Of a DNA stretch of 37,618 nt, positions 21,130 through 26,369 are shown piece after piece. The position numbers and the translations under genes are program-made. Position 1 is the first letter of the stretch; the number at the start of each line of letters is the position of its first letter. Origin of the DNA: Myxococcales bacterium (GTDB lineage Bacteria > Myxococcota_A > Polyangia > Haliangiales > Haliangiaceae); contig JAEUJY010000169.1 of NCBI GenBank assembly GCA_016794525.1, positions 1-37,618 on the forward strand. Reading direction: 5' to 3'. The notes below the pieces were generated by a model. It did no database searches. It worked only from the letters and a program-made list of their open reading frames with translations, and had not been told where the DNA came from.

Positions 21130-21281
21130 GTCCGTTCCTTTCGCGGTGGTCGAGTCCACCCACGGCGCACTCTGCGCCCGCGGGGCGTGACGGCGCGTGG
21201 GGGTCGGCGTGAACAACGCGTGAAGCGGTCGATGGGCGGGCACGTTGCGCGCGCCGCGGCGTGGGGCGACAATGGTCGCGG

Positions 21282-22937
21282 ATGTCGACGCCGGGCCGGA
21301 TCCGGGTGGCGCCGTGGGGGCCCGCGAGCACGCGCGAGGAGGCGCGCGCGTACGTCGAGTCGCGGCTGGCGCTGTTCGCGACGCTGATGTTCTGGATCTT
21401 CTGGATCCTGGTCGCGTTCCTCTACGGCATGTACACGATGTGGCCGGACGTGCGGCCGTCGAACGTCGGCTTCGTGTTCCAGACCGCGCTGGTCGGGCAG
21501 CTGACGTTCGCCGCGATCTGGTACTTCGGGCTGCGCCGGCAGCGGCTGAGCCTCGAGTGGTTGTACCGCATCGACGCGTTCTGCGTGATCGTGATCGGCC
21601 TCGAGCTCGGCGTCTCGGCCTACGCCCAGGCCGAGCTGCACGCGGCGATCTACAGCGCGTTCATCTGGCACAACTTCACGATCCTCGCGCGCACGCTGAT
21701 CGTGCCGTCGAGCGGTCGCCGCACCGCGGTCGTCACCGCGATCTCGTTCGTGCCGCTGCAGCTCGCGGCGATCGCGCTCGCCGTGTGGCACGACGCAAAG
21801 CTCGACGTGCCGGGCGGCGCGCTGGTGATCGGGACCGCGGTCTACGCCGGCGTCGCGGTGTGGCTGGCGACCACCGGCTCGCGCCTGATCTACGGCCTGC
21901 GCCGGCAGGTCAGCGAGGCGATGCAGCTCGGCCAGTACACCCTCGAGGTCAAGATCGGCGAGGGCGGCATGGGCACCGTCTACCGCGCGCGCCACGCGAT
22001 GCTGCGTCGCCCGACCGCGATCAAGCTGCTGCCGCCCGAGCGGCACGAGGCCAGCAGCTTCAAGCGCTTCGAGCGCGAGGTGCAGCACATGAGCCAGCTC
22101 ACCCACCCCAACACCGTCGCGATCTTCGACTACGGCCGCTCGATCGACGGCGTCTTCTACTACGCGATGGAGTACCTCGACGGGATCGATCTCGAGCGCC
22201 TGGTGCGCAGCCACGGTCCGCAGCCGCCGGCCCGGGTCGCGCACGTCCTGGCCCAGGTGTGCGGCTCGCTGGCCGAGGCCCACGGGCTCGGCCTGACCCA
22301 CCGCGACGTCAAGCCGGCCAACGTGATCCTGTGCCAGCGCGGCGGCCACGCCGACGTCGCGATGGTGGTCGACTTCGGGCTGGTGAAGGAGGTGGCGCGG
22401 ACCGACGACGACAGCCGCACCGCCGCGATCGCCGGCACGCCCGCGTACATGTCGCCCGAGGCGATCACCGACCCGTCCCAGGTCGGGCCCGCTAGCGATC
22501 TGTACTCGCTGGGCGCGCTCGGCTACTTCCTCCTGACCGGCACCCGGGTGTTCGAGGGCAAGACCGCGATGCACGTGTGCGCGCAGCACGTCACCGACGC
22601 GCCGGTGCCGCCGTCGCGGCGGGTCGCCACGCCGATCCCCGAGGCGCTCGAGGCGCTGATCCTGCGCTGCCTGGCCAAGGAGCCGTCGGCGCGACCGGCG
22701 AGCGCCCGCGCGTTGCGCGCCGCGCTCAAGGCGCTGCCGCTCTACGCCGAGTGGGACGAGGCGCTGGCGCAGGCGTGGTGGGACGTGTACCAGCGCGCGC
22801 GCGCCGAGGACGCGGCGGCGCCGACGACGCCGGTGACGACCACCCGCGAGTTCGCCAGCCTGACCGACCGCGAGGTCACGCCGCGCGCCGGCGCGGACGA
22901 CGCGGGTCAGGCGACCGAGACCGGCCAGCTCAGGTAG
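21282..22937 (+). CDS. Membrane Ser/Thr protein kinase with N-terminal sensor helices
   Basis: The protein has 551 residues. Residues about 25-205 hold six hydrophobic helices (first: LFATLMFWIFWILVAFLYGM). The kinase domain spans about 220-490: glycine loop KIGEGGMGTVYRARH, Lys in PTAIKLL, catalytic loop HRDVKPANV near residue 342, DFG as VVDFGLVKEV, and activation segment GTPAYMSPEAI. A Thr-rich C-terminal tail (TTPVTTTREF) could be autophosphorylated. Most bacterial kinases of this class have one helix after the kinase domain, so an N-terminal multi-helix module is less usual but known in myxobacteria. GACAAT lies eight bases before the ATG. Its end overlaps the FHA regulator gene by 31 bases, tail to tail. 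Confidence 0.92.
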   Translation: MSTPGRIRVAPWGPASTREEARAYVESRLALFATLMFWIFWILVAFLYGMYTMWPDVRPSNVGFVFQTALVGQLTFAAIWYFGLRRQRLSLEWLYRIDAFCVIVIGLELGVSAYAQAELHAAIYSAFIWHNFTILARTLIVPSSGRRTAVVTAISFVPLQLAAIALAVWHDAKLDVPGGALVIGTAVYAGVAVWLATTGSRLIYGLRRQVSEAMQLGQYTLEVKIGEGGMGTVYRARHAMLRRPTAIKLLPPERHEASSFKRFEREVQHMSQLTHPNTVAIFDYGRSIDGVFYYAMEYLDGIDLERLVRSHGPQPPARVAHVLAQVCGSLAEAHGLGLTHRDVKPANVILCQRGGHADVAMVVDFGLVKEVARTDDDSRTAAIAGTPAYMSPEAITDPSQVGPASDLYSLGALGYFLLTGTRVFEGKTAMHVCAQHVTDAPVPPSRRVATPIPEALEALILRCLAKEPSARPASARALRAALKALPLYAEWDEALAQAWWDVYQRARAEDAAAPTTPVTTTREFASLTDREVTPRAGADDAGQATETGQLR

Positions 22938-23764
22938 TAGCCGCGGCCGGGCACGGTCGCGACCAGCCCCTCGGCGCCGAGCTCGGCGAGCGTGTCGCGC
23001 AAGCGGCGCACGACCTGGCGCACGTTCTCCTCGTTGGCGTAGCGCGACTGGAACGGCAGCCGGCGCACCAGCACCTTGGTCGCCACCGTCGCGCGCACCC
23101 CGGCGGCGTCGCCGGCCTCGACCGCCGCCTCGCACAGCAGCTGCAACAGCCGGTGCTCGAGGCGCGGCAGCGCCAGCTCGTTCCAGGCGGCCGCGCCGCG
23201 GCGGCGGTGCAGCAGCACGCCCGCGCCGTCGCCGTCGTCGCCGTGGCTGCCGAGGTGGCACAGCTCGCGGACCCCGTCGCTCATGATGTGGCGCATCGCC
23301 GCGGCGCCGGCGTGGCTGGTCTCGATCGACGCCGGGTCGTCGAGCGTCAGGTCGTCGGTGCGGTGGCACAGCCACAACGCGACGTCGCCGAAGCGGACGG
23401 TCGCGCCGTCGGCCAGCGCGCTGCGGCCGGCGACCCGCACGCCGTCGACGAACGAGCCGTTGCGGCTGCCGAGATCGCGCAGCTCCCAGGCGTCGCCGGC
23501 GCGCCGCAGCTCGGCGTGGTCGCGCGAGATCGACGTGTTGTGGATCGTCAGATCGGCGCCGGGGCGGCGGCCGACCACCGCGCGCGGCGTGGCCACGCGG
23601 TGCGCGACGCCGAACCCGTCGATCAGCCACGCGCCGGTGGGCGGGCCGGCGGGCGACGCGATGTGCGCGGGGAGCAGGCCGCTCACCGTCGGCAGCAGCT
23701 CGGCGCAGCCGGTGCACAGCAGGCCGCGGATCGCGGGAGACTGGCAGCGCAGGCAGGGACGCAC
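22907..23764 (-). CDS. Zinc-ribbon / FHA / winged-helix regulator
   Basis: The 285-residue protein has three parts. Residues 4-20 form a zinc ribbon (CLRC, nine residues, CTGC). Residues about 62-125 form an FHA domain with the expected phosphothreonine-binding signature (VVGRRPGADLTIHNTSISRDHAEL, then DLGSRNGSFVDG). Residues about 180-280 form an OmpR/PhoB-like winged helix (HRLLQLLCEAA, then NEENVRQVVRRLRDTLAELGAEGLVATVPGRGYYLSW). FHA domains read phosphothreonine, so it could bind the adjacent kinase or a substrate and control transcription. Mycobacterial EmbR has similar parts in the opposite order. GTG 23764 is chosen because TACAAT lies six bases upstream and it keeps the zinc ribbon. 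Confidence 0.85.
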   Translation of the reverse strand: MRPCLRCQSPAIRGLLCTGCAELLPTVSGLLPAHIASPAGPPTGAWLIDGFGVAHRVATPRAVVGRRPGADLTIHNTSISRDHAELRRAGDAWELRDLGSRNGSFVDGVRVAGRSALADGATVRFGDVALWLCHRTDDLTLDDPASIETSHAGAAAMRHIMSDGVRELCHLGSHGDDGDGAGVLLHRRRGAAAWNELALPRLEHRLLQLLCEAAVEAGDAAGVRATVATKVLVRRLPFQSRYANEENVRQVVRRLRDTLAELGAEGLVATVPGRGYYLSWPVSVA

Positions 23765-23776: not shown

Positions 23777-23865
23777 GGCACGTCGGCGGCGCGCCTGCCT
23801 GGGTCCGCGTGTCACAGTCCGCACGATCACCGATCGCTCACGAGCGGTTCACGCCGGGTTCACGC

Positions 23866-24453
23866 TCACGCCGTCACCGTGCACAGCAGCGCCGCGCCGT
23901 AGCCCGCGAGCAGCGCGCCGACGCCGCGCGTGAGCTGCGCGACCCGGCGGCTGCGGCCGAGCGCGCTCGCGACCAGCGCGTACCAGCCGGTGGTGCCGAC
24001 GGTGACGCCGACGATCAGCGGCGCGGGCGCGAGCGCCGGCAGCGCGGCCACGGCCGCGGCCACCAGCGCCGCCCACATCAGCACCGCGCCGGGGTTCGCC
24101 ACCAGCAACGCGAAGCCGACGGCGACCCCGGGCACCCGCGATCGCGCCGATCGCGCCGGCGCCGGCTGGCCCGCGGCGCGGCGCGCGCGCAGGCCGCACA
24201 CCAGCAGCGCGGCGCCGCCGGCCACCCGCGCCATCGTGGCGCTGCCGGCCTGGCCCGCGAGCCAGGTGCCGACGCCCGCGCACGCGAGCGTCGCGCACGC
24301 CGCGTCGCCCAGCCCGGCGCCGACCCCGATCGCCAGCGCGCGGCGCCGCTGGCGATGGCGGGTCGCGGTCAGCACCGCGAGCCCGCACGGCCCCGGCGCC
24401 AGGCTCGACCCGACGCCGAGGGCGACGCCGGCGGCCAGCGACGCCGCGATCAC
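23866..24453 (-). CDS. LysE family exporter
   Basis: The 195-residue inner-membrane protein has about six hydrophobic helices. The start GVALGVGSSLAPGPCGLAVLTAT contains the PGP segment typical of LysE/RhtB amino-acid exporters, followed by an Arg-rich loop (RHRQRRR). GVGAGLGDAACATLA and a C-terminal half with FALLVANPGAVLMWAALV (family NP motif) also match. The substrate is unknown. The GTG start overlaps the methyltransferase stop as GTGA, so it is probably translated by coupling. It is the second gene of a two-gene unit. Confidence 0.82.
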   Translation of the reverse strand: MIAASLAAGVALGVGSSLAPGPCGLAVLTATRHRQRRRALAIGVGAGLGDAACATLACAGVGTWLAGQAGSATMARVAGGAALLVCGLRARRAAGQPAPARSARSRVPGVAVGFALLVANPGAVLMWAALVAAAVAALPALAPAPLIVGVTVGTTGWYALVASALGRSRRVAQLTRGVGALLAGYGAALLCTVTA

Positions 24454-25250: not shown

Positions 25251-25379
25251 GGGCGCTCCTCCTGCGGTCACGATGGGGCCGGCGGGCGTCGCCTCGCCGC
25301 GGCCTGGGCGTGAAGCGGGCGTGAGCCGGCGCGCGTCGGCGGGCTTCTCACCGCGACCGCGCGGTGGCACGATCGCGGC

Positions 25380-26369
25380 ATGTGGCGACGCGCAGGAGTC
25401 TTGTTGGCGACCCTCGGGCTGGCGGCGTGCGGCGGTGACGACGGCGGCGGCACGGTGATCGGCGGCGGCGGGCCGTACTTCCCGGCCGGCGCGTTCTGGG
25501 ATCAGGACGTCAGCGGCGTGGCGCCGGCGGCCAACAGCGACGCGATCATCGGCTCGCTGCGCGGGGCCGGCGGGTGGGGCAACGGCGACACCTTCCAGAT
25601 CGACTTCTCGATCGACGTGCTGCGCGCCGACGGCGCCAGCCCGGCGAAGCGGTCGTTCACGCCGACCGCCGACTTCTACGAGCCCGACTGCGACGCGGTG
25701 CCGATGCCGGTGCCGGCCGGCGGCAACGTCGAAGGCGAGGCCGGCTACGCGTGCACCGGCGACGGCGACTGCCACCTGCTGGTGTGGGCCCCCGACGAGA
25801 AGCAGCTGTACGAGATGTGGCGGGCCAACATCGTCGGCGATCAGTTCGACGGCGGGTGCCTGGCGGTGTGGGACACCAGCCGCAACTACGGGGCGACCGG
25901 CCGCGGCGAGCAGTGCACCAGCGCCGACGCCGCCGGCTTCCCGATCGCGCCGCTCTTGTTCACCGCCGACGAGGTGGCCGCCGGCGAGATCGACCACGCG
26001 ATCCGCTTCATCCTGCCCAACGATCGCGTCCAGCGCGGCTACGTCCGCCCGGCGACCCACGGCACCAACACCACGGGCGACGCCAACGCGCCGTACTACG
26101 GCGTCCACCTGCGGCTGCGCGCCGACTACCCGCTCGACACGCTGCCGACCGAAGGCGCGCGCGTCGTCGCGCGGGCGCTGCAGCGGTACGGCATGTACCA
26201 CGCCGACGGCGGCAACATCGCGCTCACCGCCCAGAGCGACCGCTACACCACCGCGAAGTGGGACGGCCTGCTCGAGCCGCGCGACCTCAGCGCGCTGCAG
26301 GTCGAGGACTTCGACGTGATCGATCACGGCGCGCCGATCGACCTCACGTTCGACTGCGTCCGCAACTAA
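25380..26369 (+). CDS. Hypothetical lipoprotein, beta-rich
   Basis: The 329-residue protein has a signal ending LAAC and a short Gly/Asp linker. The mature part is beta-rich with aromatic and Asn residues: FPAGAFWDQDVSG, CTGDGDCHLLVWAPDEKQLYEMWRANI, DHAIRFILPN followed by PATHGTN, and near the end HADGGNIALTAQSDRY. The HAIRF...PATH segment recurs in exported bacterial and fungal proteins of unknown activity; I cannot name the family. Four or more Cys could form disulfides. CACGAT lies six bases before the ATG, so it is another leaderless candidate. Confidence 0.72.
   Translation: MWRRAGVLLATLGLAACGGDDGGGTVIGGGGPYFPAGAFWDQDVSGVAPAANSDAIIGSLRGAGGWGNGDTFQIDFSIDVLRADGASPAKRSFTPTADFYEPDCDAVPMPVPAGGNVEGEAGYACTGDGDCHLLVWAPDEKQLYEMWRANIVGDQFDGGCLAVWDTSRNYGATGRGEQCTSADAAGFPIAPLLFTADEVAAGEIDHAIRFILPNDRVQRGYVRPATHGTNTTGDANAPYYGVHLRLRADYPLDTLPTEGARVVARALQRYGMYHADGGNIALTAQSDRYTTAKWDGLLEPRDLSALQVEDFDVIDHGAPIDLTFDCVRN

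Follow-up and report, generated by a model that had tools for sequence, protein, structure and literature searches.

In the window (the whole 37,618-nt stretch of DNA analysed, part of genome G000), a gene encoding a membrane Ser/Thr kinase meets, tail to tail, a gene encoding a regulator with a zinc ribbon, an FHA domain, and an OmpR-type winged helix (Table 1). The 31-bp overlap of the two genes reported in the initial annotation was confirmed from the ORF coordinates. The Thr-rich stretch TTPVTTT had been placed right at the overlap, but this was an error, the stretch occupying 22824–22844, ~60 bp before it. Pfam matched Pkinase at kinase residues 219–478 (E 1e-44, 153 bits); the HRD, DFG, and KPxN catalytic motifs are present, and neither the catalytic residues nor a W..A..WW segment varies among 31 kinases. 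The six-helix module described N terminal to the kinase domain is seen in the AF2 model (mean pLDDT 83), which is disordered from residue 514 onward. With the whole kinase model as query, Foldseek matched nothing but kinase domains, and the PASTA-kinase (PknB/Stk1) model NF033483 was matched by the kinase domain only, at 247.9 bits against a cut-off of 450.

Table 1. Features of the kinase–regulator locus and small proteins of related loci. Nucleotide positions are those of the window unless a locus is given.
Feature	Location	Strand	Remarks
Predicted operator CGTGAACAACGCGTGA	21208–21223	+	11-bp direct repeat; 58 bp before kinase start; best match in window, 29.2 bits
Membrane Ser/Thr kinase gene	21282–22937	+	551-aa ORF
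Kinase, six-helix N-terminal module	aa 18–213
Kinase, Hanks-type kinase domain	aa 219–478
Kinase, W..A..WW helix	aa 491–500		followed by disordered tail
Kinase, tail peptide TTTREF (aa 519–524)	22836–22853	+	divergent form of family motif T-x-x-[VI]-D-[LIV]-x-x-R
Tail-to-tail overlap of kinase and regulator genes	22907–22937		31 bp; not kept in relatives (nearest one excepted)
ZnR-FHA-OmpR-type regulator gene	22907–23764	-	285-aa ORF, GTG start
Regulator, zinc ribbon	C4, C7, C17, C20
Regulator, FHA domain	aa 41–136
Regulator, OmpR/PhoB-type winged helix	aa 156–281
Predicted operator, three tandem repeats CGTGAACCCGGCGTGAACCGCTCGTGA	23838–23864	-	upstream of regulator start
Predicted third operator CGTGAAGCGGGCGTGA	25309–25324	+	55 bp before predicted lipoprotein gene
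Predicted lipoprotein (MWRRAGVLLATLGLAAC...)	25380–26369	+	candidate regulon member
Small protein, x-x-V-D-L-x-x-R	L078:5698–5844		behind repeat
Small protein, x-x-V-D-L-x-x-R	L080:2514–2711		behind repeat
Small protein, x-x-V-D-L-x-x-R	L081:3211–3441		behind repeat
Small protein, x-x-V-D-L-x-x-R	L082:6409–6648		behind repeat
Small protein, x-x-V-D-L-x-x-R	L084:5660–5809		behind repeat
Small protein, x-x-V-D-L-x-x-R	L085:5835–5954		behind repeat
Small protein, x-x-V-D-L-x-x-R	L086:2008–2142		behind repeat
Small protein, x-x-V-D-L-x-x-R	L106:6835–7002		behind repeat

The domain architecture assigned earlier to the regulator is supported by Pfam and by structure comparison of the AF2 model (mean pLDDT 89). 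The ribbon has the spacing first given (C4xxC7-x9-C17xxC20), and its four cysteines are invariant in an alignment of 23 regulators. Pfam detected FHA at residues 63–126 (E 3.5e-17), a sandwich in the model with a Z score of 14.7 to the FHA domain of EmbR. Trans_reg_C matched residues 197–278 slightly below threshold (25.5 bits versus a cut-off of 26.2), while in the model the OmpR/PhoB-type winged helix is complete, including its N-terminal beta sheet (Z 13.5 to ToxR and 12.8 to PhoB). Loss of the FHA phosphate-binding residues had been named as grounds for dropping the proposed function; G65, R66, S78, S80, R81, H83, S100, R101, and N102 are invariant in 23/23 regulators, and the recognition helix is mostly invariant across the same 23 sequences. 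Pfam identified no receiver domain, the ribbon and FHA domain filling the N-terminal half, and a BTAD was found neither by Pfam nor in the AF2 model or structure comparison.

PknH and EmbR of Mycobacterium tuberculosis provide the closest likeness in working, comprising a membrane Ser/Thr kinase and a regulator with an FHA domain needed for kinase interaction, an OmpR-type DNA-binding domain, and envelope targets (PMC4601284), a set of properties that is predicted here; the EmbR FHA domain likewise has the phosphothreonine-binding Arg, Ser, and Asn. However, PknH possesses an extracellular sensor domain in place of a six-helix membrane module preceding the kinase domain, and EmbR is ordered wHTH-BTAD-FHA without a zinc ribbon, in contrast to ZnR-FHA-wHTH without a BTAD. 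The original description of EmbR parts in inverted order is thus true with respect to EmbR, but an FHA-first, HTH-last order already exists in mycobacterial EspM, which binds DNA and lacks a zinc ribbon; no paired kinase is described in the passages of the EspM report consulted (PMC7002343). The regulator reached 29.3 bits with the EspM model (NCBIfam NF052403), below the cut-off of 550. OmpR/PhoB systems resemble the locus in their membrane sensor kinase and winged-helix regulator, and in 11-bp direct repeats with sites in the promoters of the pair itself (predicted here), whereas in this locus a Ser/Thr kinase replaces the histidine kinase and an FHA domain replaces the receiver domain. Since the EmbR domain order, BTAD, and receiver domain are all absent, the pair is a member of neither group, although it resembles both in working. 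In a search of a literature collection, no FHA/OmpR/Ser-Thr system described from myxobacteria was found.

Conservation of the gene pair in Kofleriaceae

Regulator orthologues (clade 1) were taken as the 23 close matches (E below 1e-114), which are cleanly separated from more distant paralogues at E about 1e-48. G001, of the same genus as G000, also carries a regulator. Twenty of these 23 Kofleriaceae regulators have the same six-helix kinase no more than 1.3 kb away, so the two genes, which the initial annotation would have dissociated had they been neighbours in no relative, are indeed found together. Within that distance, 17/23 are convergent with the kinase and 3/23 (L073, L075, and L077) follow it in the same direction, stop and start codons overlapping by 4 bp (GTGA in two pairs and ATGA in one). 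The remaining three comprise L085, with the kinase 3.3 kb away, L079, a tandem copy, and L086, without an adjoining kinase. L079:5964–8384 (G024) is a tandem array of two full-length regulators plus a third, fragmentary one, next to a single kinase. The main subgroups of the kinase and regulator trees match, and no conserved neighbours other than the pair were found in the window. A chance neighbourhood was rejected. The pairing expected in other Myxococcota is present in relatives but is limited to one family: none of the loci examined outside it (L104, L107, and L129–L148) has a regulator near the six-helix kinase, and a Myxococcota-wide spread was rejected on this basis.

Because the pairing is retained through a change of orientation, comparison of these loci provides strong evidence for a joint function of kinase and regulator. 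We consider it probable that they constitute a dedicated Kofleriaceae signalling pair, a Ser/Thr analogue of an envelope (EnvZ/OmpR-type) two-component system. A somewhat doubtful alternative is that the regulator receives input from several kinases, of which the neighbour is just one, with an FHA domain able to dock any of ~150 Ser/Thr kinases. The genome of the window contains 157 kinase-domain matches, one per about 62 kb, and EmbR is phosphorylated by PknA, PknB, and PknH (PMC4601284), both consistent with many inputs, but a neighbourhood kept in two orientations points to a preferred partner. The distant paralogues, regulators of a second clade (clade 2) at about one per genome, often lie a few kb from a same-strand Ser/Thr kinase of another type; compared with the genome density of kinases, this proximity raises the prospect that the ZnR-FHA-wHTH architecture may be a general kinase partner in the family. 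In L088, L089, L155, L156, L163, and L165, a Ser/Thr kinase of another type follows the clade-2 regulator in the same direction, ~0.7–1 kb downstream.

The 3' overlap of the two genes is incidental. Stop-to-stop gaps in 18 convergent pairs range from −42 to +3339 bp, and the 31-bp overlap is common to the window and its nearest relative, L068, only. That antisense transcripts from the overlapping 3' ends couple expression of the two genes, as had been suggested, is highly improbable. The shared 31 bp in the nearest relative would agree with such coupling, but the spread of gaps, the three codirectional pairs, and a small gene filling the gap in genus g5 all speak against it; as the overlap is not conserved, antisense control is unsupported.

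A predicted direct-repeat operator

A search for motifs upstream of both genes had been recommended, and comparison of the kinase and regulator promoters side by side yielded CGTGA-N6-CGTGA direct repeats. In the window, these precede both genes of the pair and a predicted lipoprotein gene. The 11-bp period is PhoB-like, PhoB recognising two 11-bp direct repeats (PMC3978041). Genome-wide, 39 matches were obtained in 9.8 Mb, 4 of them in the 37.6-kb window, as compared to 3 for the reversed pattern. The strict form of the operator (CGTGARNNNCRCGTGA) occurs 1–17 times per genome with the regulator (17 genomes) versus 0–4 times without it (11 genomes; Mann-Whitney p=1.6e-5), and in genus g5 the ranges separate fully (6–17 with versus 1–4 without; p=0.0016); both p-values are inflated by relatedness of the genomes, the contrast within g5 being the more trustworthy. 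G000 has one strict site. Against the proposed pathway, the repeat is missing from the regulator promoter of genus g5 and from the three codirectional pairs.

It is improbable that the repeats are owned by another regulator sharing the same genome history, with the kinase and FHA protein merely two of its targets. Persistence of 1–4 sites in some genomes without a detected regulator would be explained in this way, and both phylogeny and the incompleteness of genomes confound the co-occurrence. However, the g5 counts split completely by regulator presence, G007 and G016 have the kinase, no regulator, and zero sites, and the repeat geometry is that expected for an OmpR/PhoB-type domain. A+T content is slightly raised ~29–35 bp downstream of the sites, which weakly suggests an activator-like placement of the predicted operators just upstream of the core promoter.

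Candidate targets were sampled from 82 sites in 80 stretches (twelve paired genomes and G017). By crude scoring of signal peptides and lipoboxes, 38/76 ORFs adjoining sites (50%) were predicted to be exported, versus 29/137 controls (21%) in the same stretches (p=1.7e-5). Judged by these predictions, the regulated targets are probably cell-surface proteins.

The kinase tail peptide, tail-like small proteins, and a proposed mechanism

Following a variable linker, the C termini of 23/31 kinases carry the motif T-x-x-[VI]-D-[LIV], against a shuffle mean of 0.1. By its sequence, the Thr-containing tail of the kinase in the window belongs to this conserved peptide family, as one of two divergent forms (TTTREF in the window and TITREI in the nearest relative), with Arg rather than Val or Ile at +3. 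Kinases of other families also bear the tail, as T-[VILM]-A-V-D-L-x-x-R; these six-helix kinases have no regulator nearby, so the tail is not specific to the FHA domain of the regulator. The +3 residue often determines FHA specificity, and the FHA domain of DgcB prefers Val at this position (PMC6733907). Since Val or Ile at +3 fits the FHA pocket described for DgcB, the first Thr of the tail motif is a plausible FHA ligand. In Bdellovibrio DgcB and in GarA/OdhI, too, a short Thr tail whose +3 residue is hydrophobic is read by an FHA domain (PMC6733907), as we infer here; in those proteins, however, FHA domain and tail belong to one polypeptide, and the output is something other than DNA binding.

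In the mechanism that we propose, the kinase would sense an envelope state and autophosphorylate on Thr, in the activation loop and/or the tail T-x-x-[VI]-D-L-x-x-R. The FHA domain would read that phosphothreonine, upon which the regulator would be recruited, phosphorylated, or released. Its winged helices would then bind the 11-bp repeats head to tail, and the bound regulator would autoregulate the pair and control envelope genes, presumably by activation rather than repression. The membrane-to-promoter phosphothreonine pathway of the initial annotation is strengthened by the predicted operator, while contact of the FHA domain with the tail is a step that we infer.

In genus g5, an ORF of 40–80 aa lies between the kinase and regulator genes and is read from the same strand as the kinase; its product has one or two hydrophobic segments and a kinase-tail-like C terminus (e.g., HTITVDLSRRS or QKIVVDLSKRL), and the predicted operator precedes each such ORF. 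Small membrane proteins with a similar C terminus were found at about 14 loci, beside the kinase, the regulator, or operators; related small proteins adjoin the regulator in L068, L069, and L070 and distant operators in L299 and L305. Tail-like ends terminate 11/40 hydrophobic short ORFs at loci of the pair or of sibling kinases, versus 0/52 at control loci. Most of the small proteins lack the Thr, the common element being VDLxxR. A search of G000 for such a microprotein returned chance-level matches only.

As Thr is usually missing from the small proteins, recognition of the shared peptide may not require phosphate. It could well be, although we would not expect it, that the peptide is a phosphate-independent docking tag through which the kinase and the small membrane proteins hold the regulator, or a different partner, at the membrane, and that the FHA domain reads a different phosphothreonine, for example in the activation loop. 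Retention of x-x-VDLxxR in the small proteins, usually without Thr, and conservation of the tail in kinases without a regulator nearby are consistent with such a tag, whereas Thr at position 0 in most kinases and Val or Ile at +3, as the DgcB FHA domain prefers, argue for phosphothreonine reading.

Within the dedicated signalling pair that we favor, the small proteins with a kinase-tail-like C terminus, often linked to operators, would probably act as feedback competitors for the tail-binding partner. The fullest version of this model is a tentative one and on balance unlikely: a complete Thr-phosphate counterpart of an envelope two-component system that has an operator and regulon of its own and a feedback loop closed by membrane microproteins, which are under operator control, mimic the C-terminal docking peptide of the kinase, and compete at the membrane for the regulator. 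The pair also draws attention to a class of tail-mimicking microproteins that lacks annotation. To our knowledge, the route from such Ser/Thr kinases to promoters is largely open. Kinase, phospho-reader, predicted DNA site, and predicted regulon come together in this pair, making every step testable; if the proposal is true, the pair would offer a clearly bounded example of Ser/Thr signalling built like a two-component system.

Linked operon and other neighbouring genes

In many loci, a three-gene operon (gA, gB, and gC) encoding exported beta-rich products is divergent from the kinase (e.g., L068:6714–9445, L076:55–2873, and L171:2579–5416); it is present as a single copy in most of the family. 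No convincing match to the three products was found in Pfam or PDB sequence searches. The operon is also linked to six-helix kinases without the regulator (L101 and L103), and its association with the kinase is therefore probably older than the regulator pairing. As a neighbour of the kinase in the window the operon was rejected, since in G000 it is located on contig C172, with no repeat upstream.

Several other genes adjoin the regulator or the predicted operator. In the window, the gene preceding the regulator (23866–24400) encodes a LysE-type exporter, and a similar exporter (MLGLFLFGLALGIGSSIVPGPCGLAVL) in G021 (L258) has a strict operator in its promoter. In L244 (G018), another Ser/Thr kinase gene has a strict operator 59 bp in front of it, hinting at kinase cascades. 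Divergent from the regulator at L071:3612–4067 is a gene for a small acidic protein (MASADRVLPLCDLLLAAAYADDHLDDREAERV..., TerB-like by eye), which is conserved in L072, L074, L076, and L105 (one g1 pair).
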